Shown piece after piece: positions 5,169 through 52,217 of a stretch of 52,217 nucleotides of DNA. The DNA is taken from positions 1-52,217 of the IMG/VR virus record IMGVR_UViG_3300028400_000009. One strand, written 5' to 3'. A model generated the notes under the pieces. That model was given only the letters and a program-made list of their open reading frames with translations. It made no database searches and was not told the origin of the DNA. Position numbers and translations under genes: made by a program. This DNA is from a virus. Within the stretch, counting starts at the first letter, position 1. Every line of letters begins with the position of its first letter.

Positions 5169-5197
5169 CACTTTATTAGGCGGAAACTGGCATATTG

Positions 5198-5229
5198 GAA
5201 TAGATAGAAACTGTCTATTCTGGAATTTT
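5198..5229 (+). terminator. Probable terminator after the HTH gene
   Basis: Stem GAATAGA (5198-5204) / TCTATTC (5214-5220), followed by GGAATTTTT. Stem is AT-rich, so efficiency may be modest; it could also be an operator. Confidence 0.45.
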
Positions 5230-5297
5230 TAGCGACATTTACCGTTATTGAGCGTAAAGCCCCCGTGTTTTAACCGTGGTGATATAAGCGAATAACA

Positions 5298-5497: not shown

Positions 5498-6598
5498 ATG
5501 ACAGAAGATAACACAGTATTGAAAACATTGAAAGTCAGAGTTAAAGATAATCGCAAGAATATCCTTAACCGTATGGCGTTCGATATTAATCAAGTGTGGA
5601 ATAAAGCCAACGAGATAACATCAGAAGAATGCTATGAGCCTATTCCAGAAGTCGGTTATGTTTTCAATAACATTTCAGCCTTCGATATTCAAAAACGAAT
5701 AAAAGGTATCCGTAAAGAACGAGATATGATTATTGGTGCAGGCTCAGCACAAAAAATAATTGCTATCCATGCTAAAGCCAGAAAACAATTTGAAAAAGTA
5801 AAACTTAAATGGCGTACCAGTGGTGGTAGTCGAAAGTCATTAGGTTTTGTACCGTTTAAATCAGGTGCTATTAAGTGGGTGAACGGTCAAATTAGATTCT
5901 GTGGTTATTATTTTAAGGTATGGGATAGCTACGGATTGTCAAAATATGACTTTAGGTCTGGCTCATTCTCACAAGATGCGCGTGGTCGCTGGTATCTTTC
6001 TATTGTTGTTAAAGTTCAGCAGGAAAAATCAAAAGGTACAGGTCAAATAGGCATTGATTTAGGGCTTAAAACAACGGCTGTATGTTCAGATGGTACGACT
6101 TTAGAGCGCAAACAATATTATAGAAATATGGAAAGCAAACTGGCTATGGCGCAACGCGCCAATAAGAAAAAGCAAGTTAAGAATATACACGCAAAAATTA
6201 AGAATCGTAGAGCTGATACAAATCATAAATTCAGCACAAAATTAGTAAAAGAAAACTCATTGATTGTAGTTGGTAATGTATCTAGCTCTAAATTAGCTAA
6301 AACTAAAATGGCTAAATCTGTACTAGATGCTGGCTGGTATCAATTAAAAAGTATGCTTGATTATAAATCCAAAGGGATGCAAGTATGCTATGTGGAAGTC
6401 AATGAAGCGTACACTACCCAGGCTTGTTCGTGTTGCGGCTGTATTAGCAGCAATAGTCCGAAAGGTATGGATTCGCTTGGAATAAGAGAATGGACTTGTG
6501 CAGAGTGTGGCACAAAGCATGATAGAGATATTAATGCGGCTGAGAACATTCTCCGTCTGGGGCATCAGACGCTCGCGGGAGGAATCCCCCGCTTTTAA
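5498..6598 (+). CDS. tnpB: TnpB-type RNA-guided nuclease (IS605 OrfB)
   Basis: 366 residues. RuvC-I motif GIDLGLKTT carries Asp187; the zinc ribbon is CSCC (310-313) / CAEC (334-337); the RuvC-III motif HDRDINAAENI carries Asp344. The usual RuvC-II segment reads IVVGNVSSSK, with Gly where most TnpB proteins have the catalytic Glu; a Glu is present in VNEAYTTQ (303), a position used by TnpB groups with a rearranged active site. So it may still cut. TnpB cleaves DNA guided by an RNA from the element's right end. A TATAAT at 5483-5488 (TTGATT 16 bases upstream) puts the transcript start almost at the ATG. Full length, no frameshift. Confidence 0.9.
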   Translation: MTEDNTVLKTLKVRVKDNRKNILNRMAFDINQVWNKANEITSEECYEPIPEVGYVFNNISAFDIQKRIKGIRKERDMIIGAGSAQKIIAIHAKARKQFEKVKLKWRTSGGSRKSLGFVPFKSGAIKWVNGQIRFCGYYFKVWDSYGLSKYDFRSGSFSQDARGRWYLSIVVKVQQEKSKGTGQIGIDLGLKTTAVCSDGTTLERKQYYRNMESKLAMAQRANKKKQVKNIHAKIKNRRADTNHKFSTKLVKENSLIVVGNVSSSKLAKTKMAKSVLDAGWYQLKSMLDYKSKGMQVCYVEVNEAYTTQACSCCGCISSNSPKGMDSLGIREWTCAECGTKHDRDINAAENILRLGHQTLAGGIPRF

Positions 6599-13283: not shown

Positions 13284-13718
13284 CTAAAAATTAATAGCAG
13301 TGCAATAAGGGAGCGAGTAATCAGTTCCCATTAACAGGCTATAAGCATAATCCTTCGGTTTGCCGTTCTTAAAGTAAACCTTGTAGGCTTTAGTACCAGT
13401 ATAAGCACCGTAGCTATTCTTGCCATTGATTCCAGCTATCACGCTCCATACGCGATACTTCCCTTTACCATCACGACATATTTCTTTCTTTGGTGCTAAG
13501 AAGTTAGTTATCTTCATGCTCGCGGGGTCTTTCATCGTAGGACGCACGTACTTATTCAGGTAAGCTGTAGCCTGTGCGTTAATGTTTTTAGGCTTAATTT
13601 TGCTGTAATCAGTGATAACAGGTGCTTTCTTTGCCACTGCTTTTGGTTTTACAGATGTTGCAGCACATGAGGTTAAGAGTGCTGATATTGCTATTAGTGT
13701 GATAATTTTAGTGTTCAT
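13284..13718 (-). CDS. Lipoprotein with NSYG-type domain
   Basis: 144 residues from ATG at 13718 (AAGGA eight bases upstream). Signal peptide with lipobox LLTSC. The mature part has MKDPASMKITNFLAPKK and GINGKNSYGAYTGTKAYKVY, the ...KDP.S....(C/V)..(V/I)N.KNS.G.Y.G pattern found in small envelope proteins of bacteria and phages. Envelope-located accessory protein, perhaps exclusion of other phages. Co-transcribed with the RHH gene upstream. Confidence 0.7.
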   Translation of the reverse strand: MNTKIITLIAISALLTSCAATSVKPKAVAKKAPVITDYSKIKPKNINAQATAYLNKYVRPTMKDPASMKITNFLAPKKEICRDGKGKYRVWSVIAGINGKNSYGAYTGTKAYKVYFKNGKPKDYAYSLLMGTDYSLPYCTAINF

Positions 13719-13932
13719 TGTTTTCATCCTTGTTTTGAAGTTCATTGTTGATCATGTTTGCGACTTTATCGCCTATCTTTGTGCCTATACCTCCTGTTTT
13801 CTTGTTAATCAGTTCACGCTTCATTAAGTCTTTTATGTACTCAGCCAGTGAAACACCTTTTTTATTAGCTTCCGCTAATGCCTCATCTTTTAGCCACTGT
13901 GGTAGTACCATGTTAAATCTTGCTTGTGCCAT
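13708..13932 (-). CDS. Ribbon-helix-helix regulator
   Basis: 74 residues. MAQARFNMVLPQWLKDEALA then GVSLAEYIKDLMKREL is a clear RHH (Arc/CopG-type) DNA-binding domain, followed by a short Gly/Asn tail. It precedes and overlaps the lipoprotein gene by 11 bases, so it probably autoregulates this two-gene unit. Palindrome-like AATACGCATTATT lies just upstream at 13952-13964. Confidence 0.75.
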   Translation of the reverse strand: MAQARFNMVLPQWLKDEALAEANKKGVSLAEYIKDLMKRELINKKTGGIGTKIGDKVANMINNELQNKDENNEH

Positions 13933-14027: not shown

Positions 14028-14597
14028 ATGAAACAACTTAAATTCAGATTAGAAGGTCTTGGAAGTCTTCTAATGCACTCCGATAGATTCGCTAATCCAC
14101 TAGATGAAGATGCGATTGAACACAAAAAGCTAACATCAAAAAGAAATAAAACAGTTGAAAATCTGCATGAAATAGCCAAATCAGAATGGCTAGGTTCTCT
14201 TTATTACAACGATGATCTAGGAATCCATATACCCACAGCAAACCTGCGTAAAAACCTCATAGAAGGCGCAAGAAAGTTCAAGCTCGGAAAGCACGTAGAA
14301 GGTGGTGTTTTCTTTAATAGTCAGGGCTTCCCATTAGAATACGAAGGAAGCAAGAAGCCTGAAACACTGTATAGAAATAAGGAATTTGTTGATTGTCGAT
14401 CGGTGGTTGTTGGTCGCGCTAAACTCATGCGTTACAGACCAATATTTAAACATTGGGCGTTATCTGGCACATTAGAATACGAAGAAACGGTTATTGACGA
14501 GGAGCAAATAAAGCAGTCATTTGAAAAAGCTGGTCAGGTAGTTGGTCTTGGTGATTATCGTCCTTTGTTTGGGCGGTATTCTGTTAGTTTTGATTAA
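14028..14597 (+). CDS. Phage protein with RAMP/Cas7-like features
   Basis: 189 residues. An opening strand LKFRLEGLGSLLMHSDRF, a basic helical insert (KKLTSKRNKTVENLHEIA), then IHIPTANLRKNLIEGARKF, a strand pair with GGVFF, RAKLMRYRPIF, and a glycine-rich end VVGLGDYRPLFGRYSV. A first beta strand of this kind plus a C-terminal G-rich loop is the general plan of RAMP/Cas7 RNA-binding proteins. Related phage proteins share the segments HSDRF, K-R-KT, IP..NL and GLGD.RP.FGR as far as I recall. RNA binding is an inference. The RNA-like tandem modules start 36 bases after its stop, likely on the same transcript. Confidence 0.75.
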   Translation: MKQLKFRLEGLGSLLMHSDRFANPLDEDAIEHKKLTSKRNKTVENLHEIAKSEWLGSLYYNDDLGIHIPTANLRKNLIEGARKFKLGKHVEGGVFFNSQGFPLEYEGSKKPETLYRNKEFVDCRSVVVGRAKLMRYRPIFKHWALSGTLEYEETVIDEEQIKQSFEKAGQVVGLGDYRPLFGRYSVSFD

Positions 14598-14632
14598 GTT
14601 TTAATTTTGGTTAAGTTTTAAATTATTGTCAA

Positions 14633-14697
14633 GGCGGGGCGGGGCGCGGCTAGGCGCGGCTAGGCGGGGCGAGGCGAGGCGGGGCGAGGCGGGGCAA
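14633..14697 (+). repeat. Pentanucleotide GGCNN array, copy 1 (13 units)
   Basis: Thirteen consecutive 5-base units, each GGC plus GG, GC, TA, GA or AA, without interruption, in an AT-rich region. Period 5 shifts the reading frame each unit, so the pattern is not protein-driven. Leftward frame 14601-14864 is open only because of this composition. The G-rich strand is the one transcribed with the gene at 14028. Confidence 0.92.
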
Positions 14698-14699
14698 GG

Positions 14700-14756
14700 A
14701 GTAGATAAGAATCTACTGGATTGGTCATTTTCAAAGTGATCTTTCCTGTCGGTTTT
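14700..14756 (+). ncRNA. Hairpin pair of module 1
   Basis: Hairpin 1: AGTAGAT (14700-14706), loop AAGA, ATCTACT (14711-14717). Five-base linker. Hairpin 2: GGTCATTT (14723-14730) / AAGTGATC region (14734-14741), eight pairs including two G-T. Then TTTCCTGTCGGTTTT. All elements recur at the same spacing 136 bases downstream. Confidence 0.75.
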
Positions 14757-14763
14757 GATTAAT

Positions 14764-14833
14764 GGCATGGTAGTGTCGGGTGAGGTCTGGCGCGGCTCGG
14801 TGTGGCTAGGTCGGGCGAGGCATGGCGAGGCAA
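14764..14833 (+). repeat. Pentanucleotide array, copy 2 (14 units)
   Basis: Fourteen consecutive 5-base units in phase, mostly GGC or GGT plus two bases; the third unit is TGTCG. It is more diverged than copy 1 (T in place of C) and also ends GGCAAGG. The end lies exactly 136 bases after the end of copy 1. Confidence 0.88.
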
Positions 14834-14835
14834 GG

Positions 14836-14893
14836 GATAGACAAGAGTCTATCAGATCGCACATTCTAAACAGTGTGCTTTCTTATAGGTTTT
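14836..14893 (+). ncRNA. Hairpin pair of module 2
   Basis: Hairpin 1: GATAGAC (14836-14842), same loop AAGA, GTCTATC (14847-14853). Compared with module 1, three stem positions differ and all three are compensated on the other arm. Five-base linker, then hairpin 2 GCACATT (14859-14865) / AGTGTGC (14872-14878), then TTTCTTATAGGTTTTTTT, which may terminate part of the transcripts. Confidence 0.75.
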
Positions 14894-14913
14894 TTTACAA
14901 TGGAGATAAATAA

Positions 14914-15402
14914 ATGATTGAAGTACAAGCATACCCACAATATAAATACGCCGCTGAATGTATCGCCGATGATTTTACCTATGGCGACCTAATCAGCAAA
15001 GAGTATTTAGAAAACAAGCTAGGATTTAAGAAGCCCAAAACAATAGCTGAGTACCAGGCGCAACAATTAAAGAAGTTGGCAGATACCGTCAAGTTAAAAG
15101 AGTTCATACTTGAGACATATATGTATTACCTAATCCCTGAAAATGGTGGATACAGAATTGTTAAACCAAGAGAACAAACAAAAATAGTCGTTGATCGCCT
15201 AAAAAAATCCCTCGATAAAACAATGAGAGATTCAGCAAAAGGGCTGAAAAATGTCAATCATTCAAAATTAACTAATGATGAAATAAACGAAAACACAAGG
15301 GCGATGAATGTCTTGGGTGCAATGAAGCTTTTTGCAAAAAAAGGTAAGAAAAAGTTTAGGTTTTTAACTAAAGGCTCTAAGAGCTCTAAAGGCTCTTTCT
15401 AG
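14914..15402 (+). CDS. Phage protein with winged-helix-like start, unknown function
   Basis: 162 residues. DDFTYGDLISKEYLENKLGF and an ENGGYRIVKPREQT wing-like segment (around residue 75-90) look like a winged helix, then a basic helical tail (LKKSLDKTMRDSAKGLKN) and a Ser/Lys-rich end. Proteins with GYRI(V)-P-EQT blocks occur in other phages. DNA or RNA binding is plausible. It follows the array modules with GGAG before ATG. Confidence 0.7.
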   Translation: MIEVQAYPQYKYAAECIADDFTYGDLISKEYLENKLGFKKPKTIAEYQAQQLKKLADTVKLKEFILETYMYYLIPENGGYRIVKPREQTKIVVDRLKKSLDKTMRDSAKGLKNVNHSKLTNDEINENTRAMNVLGAMKLFAKKGKKKFRFLTKGSKSSKGSF

Positions 15403-23411: not shown

Positions 23412-24206
23412 CTATATAGCAACTTTTAAATCGCCGCCTGTGTGATAAATTGATTTATTTGGTATAAGTCCAGCGTTAATTGCATCTGCATTTGAAGCGT
23501 ATTCAGGGATACCAGTGCCATTGCCAACTGATAATATAATATTGCCAGACAAATCAGATGGTAATCCAGTTACATTTGCGCCGATAATTGTATTATTACT
23601 CCCCGTTACTATGCCTCTCCCTGTGTTACATCCGTATATAGTGTTCGCATCACCAGTTGTGATGTCGTATCCAGCCGCATAACCATTCGCTGTCCAGTTA
23701 CTGCCCGTTGTGTTCAAGTATCCAGCGTACATGCCATTCGCTGTCCAGTTACTGCCCGTTGTGTTCAAGTATCCAGCTCTATTACCATTCGCTGTCCAGT
23801 TATTGCCCGTTGTGTTCGAGTATCCAGCCGCATAACCATTCGCTATCCAGTTATTGCCCGTTGTGTTCGAGTATCCAGCGTACATGCCATTCGCTGTCCA
23901 GTTACTGCCCGTTGTGTTCGAGTATCCAGCGTACATGCCATTCGCTGTCCAGTTACTGCCCGTTGTGTTCGAGAATGCAGATTCTTTGCCGACTCGTGTA
24001 TTACTACTTTTTGCTTCTATTTGTGGGTCAACGTATGCCGCAACGCTACCAGCATTAGTTACCGCAGCAGCTTGGTTTAAGAATTTCATTACATTAACAC
24101 TAGCATTAATGATGTTAAGCCACTTCTGATACCACGTTTTATCTTCGCATGTTATTTTATTTGTCTGTAACGCTGTTTCTAAGTCATCAATTGGATTTGT
24201 TGCCAT
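23412..24206 (-). CDS. Fibre-like protein with 17-residue repeats
   Basis: 264 residues. Helical head (ALQTNKITCEDKTWYQKWLN), then about six copies of a 17-residue repeat (core NTTGSNWTANGMYAGYS), then single repeats with GSNNTIIGANVTG and a short end. Repeats of AGY-NTTG-N--NG type form beta-rolls in tail fibres and trimeric adhesins. Probably a receptor-binding or decoration fibre. Repeat number may vary between relatives. Confidence 0.75.
   Translation of the reverse strand: MATNPIDDLETALQTNKITCEDKTWYQKWLNIINASVNVMKFLNQAAAVTNAGSVAAYVDPQIEAKSSNTRVGKESAFSNTTGSNWTANGMYAGYSNTTGSNWTANGMYAGYSNTTGNNWIANGYAAGYSNTTGNNWTANGNRAGYLNTTGSNWTANGMYAGYLNTTGSNWTANGYAAGYDITTGDANTIYGCNTGRGIVTGSNNTIIGANVTGLPSDLSGNIILSVGNGTGIPEYASNADAINAGLIPNKSIYHTGGDLKVAI
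23670..23975. repeat. 51-bp tandem repeat (about six copies)
   Basis: Nearly identical 51-base units on the plus strand (unit contains GCCATTCGCTGTCCAGTTAC) encode the 17-residue protein repeats. The bases agree more than the protein would need, so copies arose recently or are kept alike by recombination. Confidence 0.9.
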
Positions 24207-45869: not shown

Positions 45870-47239
45870 TGAAAACTCACTCTTTTGGGTTTTTTAGGCT
45901 CGTTAAACTCCATCAGTGAGTTTATATACTGATTTTTCGCGCCTTCCTCAATATCAACAAAATCCATTCTGTTTTTTCTGAAACAAACTATTTGCTTTGA
46001 TGTTTCACCATTCCTGAATTTATCAATTATTATTTCTGCAACGCCATGAGCGGCTTGAACATCTGGAAAATAAACCTCATGTCTGTATAAAAGGATTATC
46101 AAATCTGCATCATTCTCGAATTGACTAGCCCAACTTAGATTTGCCTTGGTTGGTCTTTTATCTTTTTGCTTGTCAACTTCTCGCTGTATTTGGCTTAGTC
46201 CTATAATTGGAATATTAAGCTCTTTTGCTAATGACTTGCACTCTGAAGATATGGTCATTGCCTCCTGGATTTTTTCCATAGTTCGCCCGCCTCTATTAAC
46301 CCGTAGGTTTTGAAGGTAATCAATCCAGACACCTCCGCTCATATCATTATTTTGCGCCCACGTTCTTATTTGATTCTTGATTACATCCCAATCATTAGTC
46401 CAGTCATTTATCAAGACTCGTTTTCTTTCTTCATTGCTTACTTGCTGCAACCCTTGAGCTATTCTTGCCCACTCGCTTTCTTCTGCTTTTCCGTTTCTAA
46501 TTTTTTTAAGATCAATTCCTGAATGGCTTGCTATGTGCCTCATGCCTAATTGCATATCTGGCATTTCAGTGGAAATAATACCCGTGAACCTTCCATCTTT
46601 TACTGTGTTCTGCATACATGATAAACAGAAAGCAGTTTTACCCATCGCTGATCTAGCACCAACAACAATAAAGTCAGTTTTCTGAAAGCCGCCCGTTTCA
46701 TTGTCTAAAACTGAAAGCCCTGTTTTTGCACCAGTTGGAGAATGAACATCCATGTATACGCCTAGCTGGTCTACGGCTTTCTTAACTCCTTCATTGAGGT
46801 TTGTACTCTTTCTTGATGCTGTGCTACTCGTTGCCTCCAATAAAGCCTGTATAGCCTCACTAGCACTATTTGGATTCCTTAATAAATCCTCTGCAATTTC
46901 CAAAACCTTAACTTGTACGCCATGTTTTTTAATATTTGTAACGGCGTTTTCAATAGTTCGTTTATCTGTTTTGAAAAGCCTGTAATCATTAGCAAATAGA
47001 TTGAGCCTTGTTTTCCAATCTATAGCCGAGCAAGGTATATTTTTCTGGTTCAACATATCTGCAATAGTAAGAATGTTTGCTGGTTGTCCAGATGTTTCTA
47101 ATTGCTCCGCTGAAAGCCATATTTGTTGGTTTTCTTCATTCTTAAAATCAACCGCGCTTAATCCTATCTGTGAAGCACTAGCCCTTGAGCTAAGAACTAA
47201 TGCAATCAGGTAATTTTCATAATCAGATGTGTTTTGCAT
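45866..47239 (-). CDS. dnaB: Replicative DNA helicase (DnaB type)
   Basis: 457 residues. N-terminal DnaB domain (YENYLIALVLSSRASASQIG), Walker A VGARSAMGKTAFC (near residue 205), Walker B GGVWIDYLQNLRV, then GLSQIQREVDKQKDKRPTKA and the ADLIILLYRHE strand. Unwinds DNA at the phage origin, loaded by the O-like product directly upstream (1-base overlap). Confidence 0.95.
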   Translation of the reverse strand: MQNTSDYENYLIALVLSSRASASQIGLSAVDFKNEENQQIWLSAEQLETSGQPANILTIADMLNQKNIPCSAIDWKTRLNLFANDYRLFKTDKRTIENAVTNIKKHGVQVKVLEIAEDLLRNPNSASEAIQALLEATSSTASRKSTNLNEGVKKAVDQLGVYMDVHSPTGAKTGLSVLDNETGGFQKTDFIVVGARSAMGKTAFCLSCMQNTVKDGRFTGIISTEMPDMQLGMRHIASHSGIDLKKIRNGKAEESEWARIAQGLQQVSNEERKRVLINDWTNDWDVIKNQIRTWAQNNDMSGGVWIDYLQNLRVNRGGRTMEKIQEAMTISSECKSLAKELNIPIIGLSQIQREVDKQKDKRPTKANLSWASQFENDADLIILLYRHEVYFPDVQAAHGVAEIIIDKFRNGETSKQIVCFRKNRMDFVDIEEGAKNQYINSLMEFNEPKKPKRVSFQ

Positions 47240-48066
47240 TACGCCACCTCTCTATGGTATTTGCCTTCATAAATTTTTGCGAAATTGTTAGGTCTTGATA
47301 GCCATTCAAGATCAGGCAAGAAAGGTGGTTTATCATCTGTACCCTCTGTTTTACCTGTCAGAAATCTTGATTCTGATATGTAAGTGAAATACTTTTCCCA
47401 ACTCTCCAATGATGGCAAATCTTCAATCCACCGTTGTTTTATGTATCCCTTCCTTGTTGCTGTTAGCTTTCTTAGCTCTGGATTGTTTGGCAAGATAGAG
47501 TGATATAAAGATATTATTCTTTTGAATGGAACTTGAGTTTTTTGTTTAGTTTTTGTTTTAACTTCAACATCTACATCACCATGTAGATTATCATTAGTAG
47601 TATTATTATATATAGTAGTATTATATGTCGGATTTATTTCCGAGTTATTTTCGGATTTATTTCCGAGTTTTGTCGGATTTATTTCCGAGTTCGGATTTAT
47701 TTCCGACATAGTAGCCTCACTTAATTCGGATTTATTTCCGACATAGTAGCTTTTCCCCTTTTCGGTTAGTTTCATACAGTCCTTTTTCCCTACTTTTATA
47801 TGCTTTATAACGCCTAATTTATCCAGCGCTTTTAGATGCCTGTATATTGTGTCTGGCTTTAACCCTAATATTGGAAGTTGTTCAGATATTTTTTGCCTTG
47901 CGACCCAGTAGTAAATATCGTTATCTACTATAATTGCCTCAGCCCATGTGTTTGCATGGGCTAATAAGTCAAAGATTATAGCTTGATTTATATTTGTTAT
48001 GCCTAGACGTAAGCATTCACGCTGACCAACGTATAAAGTAAATTTGAAGTTATTATGCTGTGACAT
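47239..48066 (-). CDS. O-like replication initiator
   Basis: 275 residues. A winged-helix start (NFKFTLYVGQRECLRLGITN, then QKISEQLPILGLKPDTIYRH), a repetitive middle (SEINP and GNKSE blocks), then a basic domain for helicase contact (TRKGYIKQRWIEDLPSLESW). In lambda, O binds iterons inside its own gene and recruits the helicase. The same plan is visible here: the iterons produce the amino-acid repeats. Read from the structured leader at 48067-48231, AAAGGGGC before ATG. Confidence 0.85.
   Translation of the reverse strand: MSQHNNFKFTLYVGQRECLRLGITNINQAIIFDLLAHANTWAEAIIVDNDIYYWVARQKISEQLPILGLKPDTIYRHLKALDKLGVIKHIKVGKKDCMKLTEKGKSYYVGNKSELSEATMSEINPNSEINPTKLGNKSENNSEINPTYNTTIYNNTTNDNLHGDVDVEVKTKTKQKTQVPFKRIISLYHSILPNNPELRKLTATRKGYIKQRWIEDLPSLESWEKYFTYISESRFLTGKTEGTDDKPPFLPDLEWLSRPNNFAKIYEGKYHREVA
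47587..47741. other. Probable replication origin: five iterons and an AT-rich tract
   Basis: TCGGATTTATTTCCGA, a 16-bp imperfect palindrome, occurs at 47628, 47651, 47673, 47691 and 47726. Beside them 47587-47627 is almost pure A/T with TATTATTATATATAG, a natural unwinding element. Iterons next to an AT-rich element inside an initiator gene is the lambda-type origin. Confidence 0.85.
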
Positions 48067-51470: not shown

Positions 51471-51515
51471 ATTGAGCGTAAAGCCACCGACTTTAGGCGT
51501 GGGGAGTATGTCAAT
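51471..51515 (+). other. Orphan copy of an IS605-type right end
   Basis: Begins with ATTGAGCGTAAAGCC, identical to 5246-5260, and continues GGCGTGGGGAGTATGTCAAT, close to the right end of the tnpB element (GCGTGGGGAGGATGTCAAG). No tnpB gene is next to it. A deletion remnant or an isolated guide-RNA scaffold. Confidence 0.6.
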
Positions 51516-51671
51516 CGGTAGAAAACATCGGTAAATAGCTCAGTATGTCGGTTAACCGAGCAAAACAGAGTTAACCGAGCAAATTCTACCGAGCTACATG
51601 GTAATTTCTACCGACCAAATATACCCACAAAGGGGTATTTACCGATTATCAGAATCTCGGTAGTATCGGTT
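51515..51671. repeat. Ten TCGGTW half-sites in both orientations
   Basis: TCGGTA/T at 51515, 51528, 51548, 51657, 51666 and WACCGA at 51554, 51573, 51587, 51609, 51640. TCGGTTAACCGA (51548-51559) is a perfect 12-bp palindrome. The 18-bp operator ATACCCACAAAGGGGTAT is at 51621-51638. Dense sites suggest a multi-site protein assembly before the gene at 51698. Confidence 0.7.
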
Positions 51672-51697: not shown

Positions 51698-52078
51698 ATG
51701 AATATTGATGATTTAACTATTGGGGAGGCTAGAGAAATCGCCTCTTTTTTTCAGCCAGTGGAATCTAATAAAGGGTTTAAAAATCCATTAATTGGTTCTT
51801 ATGTTCTTGTTAGAACGTATGCAAGCGGCGTCCACTTCGGAAAACTAATACAACATCAAAACCAAAACATTGTTCTTGATGAAGCAATAAGAATATGGAA
51901 ATGGAAAGCCAAAAAAGGTATTGCGCTTTCAGGAGTTGCAATGCACGGACTAGACATGGATTACGATAACAAATTAGATTCGATGACAAGTAACCATGTC
52001 ATTACTGACGCAATAGAAATTATTAAGTCTGATGTTTTGAAAAAGCAGTTAAATGAAATAGGAGAGTACAATGCTTAA
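51698..52078 (+). CDS. Hypothetical protein
   Basis: 126 residues. DDLTIGEAREIASFFQPVES, then NPLIGSYVLVRTYASGVHFG and IRIWKWKAKKGIALSGVAMH, a beta-rich domain common in phage hypotheticals (vrt..aGvh.G.l). Ribosome-binding site AAAGGAG. The end overlaps the next start (ATGC TTAA). Confidence 0.7.
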   Translation: MNIDDLTIGEAREIASFFQPVESNKGFKNPLIGSYVLVRTYASGVHFGKLIQHQNQNIVLDEAIRIWKWKAKKGIALSGVAMHGLDMDYDNKLDSMTSNHVITDAIEIIKSDVLKKQLNEIGEYNA

Positions 52079-52217
52079 CATACAAGTGTACTGGAAAACT
52101 GGCTCTGGCTCTGGCTCTGGCTATGGCTATGGCGATGGCTCTGGCTATGGCTATGGCGATGGCTCTGGCTCTGGCTATGGCTCTGGCTATGGCTCTGGCT
52201 ATGGCTATGGCTCTGGC
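52071..52217 (+). CDS. Gly-Ser/Tyr/Asp repeat protein, partial
   Basis: Start MLNIQVYWKTG followed by alternating Gly with Ser, Tyr or Asp (GSGYGYGDG type) to the window edge. The DNA is a six-base repeat of GGCTCT, GGCTAT and GGCGAT. Coupled to the gene before it (GGAG, then ATG inside the stop). Similar Gly-X proteins occur in other phages; the repeat probably varies in length by slippage. Function unknown. Confidence 0.75.
   Translation, partial: MLNIQVYWKTGSGSGSGYGYGDGSGYGYGDGSGSGYGSGYGSGYGYGSG

Follow-up and report, generated by a model that had tools for sequence, protein, structure and literature searches.

A probable VIPR guide-RNA locus of a tailed phage with both vrRNAs placed between vipr and vap1

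What is specified by two tandem pentamer arrays, each followed by a pair of hairpins, that stand behind a RAMP-like gene in a phage genome? The arrays are located in a 52,217-base virus record (IMG/VR IMGVR_UViG_3300028400_000009), the whole of which was analyzed and is termed the window, and which also includes phage terminase, portal, tape measure and endolysin genes. A sequence-only reading had concluded that no named system possesses this layout. That conclusion was not borne out, as the same parts constitute VIPR (Viral Interference Programmable Repeat), an RNA-guided system that was described only very recently, in a bioRxiv preprint of April 2026 (version 2, June 2026; PMC13142463). VIPR comprises the Vipr protein, a RAMP more primitive than those of CRISPR, and vrRNAs in which a structured 3′ tail follows 9–16 YNNGG repeats. 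The complex reads dsDNA via the NN dinucleotides with one target base skipped between them, and is directed mostly against competing phages, prophages and satellites. Accessory vap genes are located near to vipr, type II vap genes specify predicted DNA-binding proteins (PMC13142463), and VIPR has been proposed as an ancestor of CRISPR RAMPs. The region at 14028-15402 is assigned to VIPR because its Vipr homologue, its GGY/NN tracts with structured tails and its vap1 homologue match the published features. The best explanation as a whole, silencing mechanism included, is a VIPR guide-RNA locus of a tailed phage, with a probability of roughly 0.93. The locus is probably a type II representative of the SUSP1/Pseudomonas clade. 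Its features are collected in Table 1.

Table 1. Features of the probable VIPR locus and the evidence for each; positions are those of the window.
Feature	Position	Strand	Description	Basis
vipr	14028-14597	+	189-aa RAMP/Cas7-fold guide-RNA-binding protein; glycine-rich loop VVGLGDYRPLFGRY	phrog_4652; PDB 36pp; AF2; Foldseek
vrRNA1 repeat tract	14633-14697	+	13 perfect GGC-NN units	direct reading; two-strand scan; simulations
vrRNA1 tail part 1	14698-14717	+	GG + hairpin 1 (7 bp, loop AAGA)	
vrRNA1 tail part 2	14718-14746	+	outer stem GGA/TCC around 7-bp hairpin 2 (GGTCATT/AGTGATC)	covariation, 21 tails
vrRNA2 repeat tract	14764-14833	+	14 GGY-NN units; third unit TGTCG degenerate	direct reading; two-strand scan
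vrRNA2 tail part 1	14834-14853	+	GG + hairpin 1 (7 bp, loop AAGA); three compensatory changes relative to copy 1	
vrRNA2 tail part 2	14854-14883	+	outer stem AGA/TCT around 7-bp hairpin 2 (GCACATT/AGTGTGC); terminator-like	covariation, 21 tails
vap1 homologue	14914-15402	+	VIPR accessory protein, 162 aa	phrog_5926, E 5.7e-24; AF2 model

The vipr product belongs to phrog_4652 (E 3.9e-54), a family shared with Escherichia phage SUSP1. Its only significant sequence match in the PDB was 36pp, entitled "SUSP1 Vipr protein", which aligned over the full length of the protein (residues 1-187, E 1.9e-33); a profile built from 21 vipr homologues matched the same entry with E 1.8e-79. When the AlphaFold (AF2) model of Vipr (pLDDT 91.3) was compared with known structures using Foldseek, the best 50 PDB fold matches were without exception chains of CRISPR effector complexes of type III or VII, the majority from Csm. 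The assignment of the gene to the RAMP/Cas7-like family of RNA-binding proteins, made originally from strand and glycine-loop features, therefore was correct, and the protein is a single-RRM RAMP homologue with the glycine loop. The RAMP fold, the glycine-rich loop and the type III/VII structural matches are shared with the Csm3/Cas7 backbone of Class 1 CRISPR-Cas, whereas the VIPR guide is a pentamer tract that is read non-contiguously. Class 1 CRISPR-Cas was considered and rejected: no CRISPR repeat-spacer array is present at the locus, only an array with a 5-base period, and neither vap1 nor the tested neighboring genes match any cas family in Pfam or PADLOC. No model in Pfam, PADLOC or NCBIfam recognized either vipr or vap1. 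Divergent from vipr is a small gene on the minus strand (13708-13932) with a weak match (E 0.007) to Arc-like ribbon-helix-helix proteins, a possible regulator of the VIPR locus. Elsewhere in the window, 5498-6598 on the plus strand encodes a TnpB-family RNA-guided endonuclease of IS605 OrfB type that shares 67% identity with a copy from a Methylobacter plasmid, so that two unrelated kinds of RNA-guided protein are present. This gene also is the single clue to the host, and the inference is weak because the gene is mobile.

The vap1 homologue is 29% identical to the SUSP1 gene adjoining vipr, which was taken to be the vap1 gene of the published work judging from its position. A phrog_5926 gene is located beside vipr, following it, in SUSP1, LESphi2, Medea1, MakoManhole and LittleE. 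The AF2 model of the window protein (pLDDT 89) is helix-rich with a beta-hairpin, and its N-terminus follows a helix-strand-helix-helix-hairpin order that is winged-helix-like. Fold matches in the PDB included none that was significant, and several of the weak ones were winged-helix regulators; a DNA-binding fold thus is suggested for the protein by matches that are themselves non-significant.

The two repeat tracts were examined by direct reading and by simulation. The GGCNN motif described in the sequence-only reading holds for the 13 units of the first array, but the second array is more accurately GGY with one degenerate unit among its 14. Both lengths fall inside the published range of 9–16 units. 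The longest perfect GGY run extends for 13 units; by comparison, runs were at most three units in first-order Markov simulations of the window with the same dinucleotide make-up, and at most four units in base-shuffles of the array region. Scanning of both strands of the entire window disclosed no further such arrays. The dinucleotides of vrRNA1 (GG GG GC TA GC TA GG GA GA GG GA GG AA) are low in complexity, being almost exclusively GG, GA, GC and TA, mostly G/A and less varied than those of relatives, and this tract accordingly may be degenerate or may be aimed at repetitive sequence. The corresponding dinucleotides of vrRNA2 are AT AG CG GA CT GC TC GT TA CG GA AT GA AA. Among relatives, 82% of 1543 repeat units carry a pyrimidine at position 3, and positions 4 and 5 are near-random (entropies of 1.96 and 1.98 bits). 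The published GGY/NN pattern is thereby reproduced, which speaks against both a quadruplex and a simple repeat. A nucleotide-level search of the array region against phage DNA gave no match; nothing reached the gathering threshold in an Rfam search, and a permissive Rfam search returned only sub-threshold, unrelated matches such as the Bacillus trp leader (E 0.12). A TRAP-like element (trp RNA-binding attenuation), considered because of the 5-base period, was dropped when the preceding protein proved to be Vipr.

Other repetitive sequences are present in the window. A 51-base tandem repeat of about six copies (23667-23980) is located within a structural-protein-like reading frame at 23412-24206 whose product possibly is a repetitive tail or fibre protein. 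Iteron-like repeats of 22-23 bases (47583-47706) lie inside a replication-initiator-like gene (47239-48066) and in this respect resemble the lambda-type origin that is embedded in gene O. TCGGT and ACCGA motifs in both orientations cluster at 51480-51670, upstream of a DUF6948 gene (51698-52078), in what looks like an operator cluster. Finally, ~20 TGGCTA-like hexamers at 52100-52217, which would encode Gly-Ser/Tyr/Asp repeats, run off the end of the record.

The tails that follow the arrays begin exactly 136 bases apart, at 14698 and 14834, and the presence of two array-plus-double-hairpin modules at this interval was confirmed by direct reading and by the scan. The first hairpins are AGTAGAT-AAGA-ATCTACT (14700-14717) and GATAGAC-AAGA-GTCTATC (14836-14853). 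As recognized previously, these differ at three positions on each arm and every difference is a paired change. The second hairpin in each tail had been described as preceded by a 5-base linker and followed by a CTTTC tail; instead, the outer bases of these segments pair, forming an additional three-pair outer stem of the form XGA..TCX′ that the earlier reading overlooked. The 293-base region as a whole folds more stably than shuffled sequences (z = -3.9).

Selection for the fold, proposed initially from the two copies, was assessed across 21 tails from the window and related phages. In the outer stem and hairpin 2, 98.1% of cells form standard pairs. Both-side changes numbered 29 compared to a mean of 4.5 in shuffles, none of 500 of which reached 29, and sliding the partner by one to three columns reduced pairing to 39-63%. 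The 3′ tail structure thus is conserved, selection for the fold is upheld, and covariation extends beyond the two copies in the window. Counting was confined to hairpin 2 and the outer stem as the whole-tail MAFFT alignment misplaced the 7-bp hairpin 1 of the window. The tails were chosen by a pattern that specified hairpin 2 paired at ≥5 of 7 positions, a 5′ GAT and TTC in the tail, and two further tails that the pattern caught were removed by hand as their hairpin 2 lay out of register. The pattern favors the structure at the filtered positions (hairpin 2, GAT and TTC). The outermost pair is outside the filter and therefore offers the cleanest covariation evidence: this first pair of the outer stem is C-G in 17 tails, G-C in two, A-U in one and U-A in one, so that all four Watson-Crick versions are represented.

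The closest named counterpart with published characterization is the VIPR of SUSP1 (KT454805, PDB 36pp; PMC13142463), in which Vipr is 35% identical over its full length to the window protein and Vap1 is 29% identical, and which similarly possesses several vrRNAs in which a GGY/NN tract leads into a structured 3′ tail. The two systems differ in arrangement: vipr and vap1 abut in SUSP1 with one vrRNA upstream and the remainder downstream, whereas both vrRNAs are between the genes in the window. The tails differ also. A pseudoknot has been reported for the vrRNA tail of the SUSP1 clade (PMC13142463) and, as judged by inspection, the SUSP1 tail has a large hairpin loop that is complementary to a downstream stretch, whereas the loop of hairpin 1 in the window is only four bases (AAGA) and is followed by a second hairpin. 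In SUSP1 itself (5171-5240 of locus L045), the hairpin-1 loop AGTCTCA is complementary to a TGAGACT farther downstream, in keeping with the pseudoknot that was published. As the pseudoknot is reported for the SUSP1 clade only, it is not a defining attribute of all VIPR systems. Pseudomonas prophage VIPRs such as that of LESphi2 (OQ594955) and a set of IMG/VR loci (L002-L044) have a Vipr that is 43-49% identical and a vap1 homologue, and the IMG/VR loci share the same two-hairpin tail with an outer stem. However, arrays in these relatives are upstream of vipr and number up to 10 per locus, compared to two downstream of vipr in the window. Their tails often end CTTCGAGTG, whereas hairpin 1 of the window is longer (7 bp, loop AAGA).

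The gene order was compared among 70 distinct vipr loci that comprise the window, phages and IMG/VR records. A vap homologue was detectable in 68 and a GGY array beside vipr in 59, in agreement with the expectation that pentamer arrays adjoin homologues of the RAMP-like gene. Relatives carry their arrays outside the gene pair, either before vipr, after vap or on both sides. In the window alone, they are between the two genes in the order vipr-vrRNA-vrRNA-vap1. The intervening gap is estimated at 320 bases and contains both vrRNAs, compared to ≤75 bases in all of the other loci for which the estimate was usable (one locus, L072, was set aside as its estimate was implausible). Direct adjacency of vipr and vap, which is the usual VIPR layout although not stated as a defining one, hence is absent. 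The arrangement might represent a VIPR variant in which guides inside a vipr-vap1 operon couple guide release to Vap1 expression and vrRNA1 addresses repetitive G/A-rich coding sequence, a proposal that is speculative and on balance unlikely.

By analogy with the published SUSP1 work, the RNAs of the locus would be expressed and assembled into an RNP that applies the skip-1 code to silence targets. Two vrRNAs of ~100 bases would be made, each with its repeat tract covered by Vipr and with its double-hairpin tail serving as the 3′ handle. Binding of the RNP to dsDNA would involve pairing at the NN dinucleotides only, with a single target base left unread between one dinucleotide and the next, and genes of a competitor, whether phage, prophage or satellite, would thereby be repressed with the assistance of Vap1. 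Written as skip-1 codons, vrRNA2 reads ATN AGN CGN GAN CTN GCN TCN GTN TAN CGN GAN ATN GAN AAN, a series that would specify a peptide of ordinary appearance. The search for skip-1 targets covered the window, the collected loci, a viral collection with six patterns and a genome collection with one. Matches to either vrRNA in the window did not exceed those in shuffled sequence, as is expected of guides that are aimed at other genomes. The IMG/VR scans (six patterns, 8- to 10-unit stretches) produced only chance-level partial matches in unrelated sequences, and the GTDB scan (one pattern) produced a single match of 20/28 in an archaeal MAG (L071), which accords with an estimated chance expectation of ~0.5. 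The best skip-1 matches were 21/28 for vrRNA2 (L058) and 22/26 for vrRNA1 (L153), in unrelated proteins.

The chance-level results in IMG/VR and GTDB are compatible with a locus of VIPR origin that no longer guides, in which the arrays are relics, a sponge, or a cis-regulatory element that mediates autoregulation on vipr-vap1 mRNA. The location of the arrays inside a putative operon, the low complexity of vrRNA1 and the degenerate unit in vrRNA2 point in the same direction. These features and a gene order shared by no relative also weigh against the main reading. Yet each array retains 13 intact GGY units, the vipr and vap1 frames are intact, and the hairpins have been kept through compensatory change between the copies, which argues for ongoing selection; moreover, databases usually would miss the targets of an uncultivated phage. 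Loss of guide function accordingly is judged improbable. Of the three options offered at the outset, a guide-like RNA is the one that stood. A phage-made decoy or anti-CRISPR RNA bound by a solo Cas7-like protein would fit the RAMP fold of Vipr and an RNA that adjoins its gene, but the repeats are unlike CRISPR repeats in their 5-base period and near-random NN, the gene pair and GGY arrays recur in many phages and prophages, and the published function of a close homologue is DNA targeting (PMC13142463), so that this explanation is very improbable. Least credible of all is a role unrelated to guiding, in which the G-rich tracts form a quadruplex, in DNA or RNA, or some other structure, for which GG every five bases and GGGG where NN is GG in the first array might speak, as a quadruplex requires neither the conserved position-3 pyrimidine nor near-random NN and long G runs are few in the second array and in relatives.

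The VIPR guide-RNA locus described here is not new as a discovery, since both VIPR and the way in which it works have already appeared in the preprint and the PDB. What is plainly present, namely the family and fold of Vipr and, in a phage setting, the arrays with their covarying tail and a vap1 homologue, nevertheless recovers the VIPR signature independently from raw sequence in a phage that is only distantly related to the characterized ones, and supplies covariation evidence for the outer tail stem across the class of two-hairpin tails. The placement of both vrRNAs between vipr and vap1 is new, and this gene order, absent from the 69 other loci, bears on how vrRNAs are transcribed.
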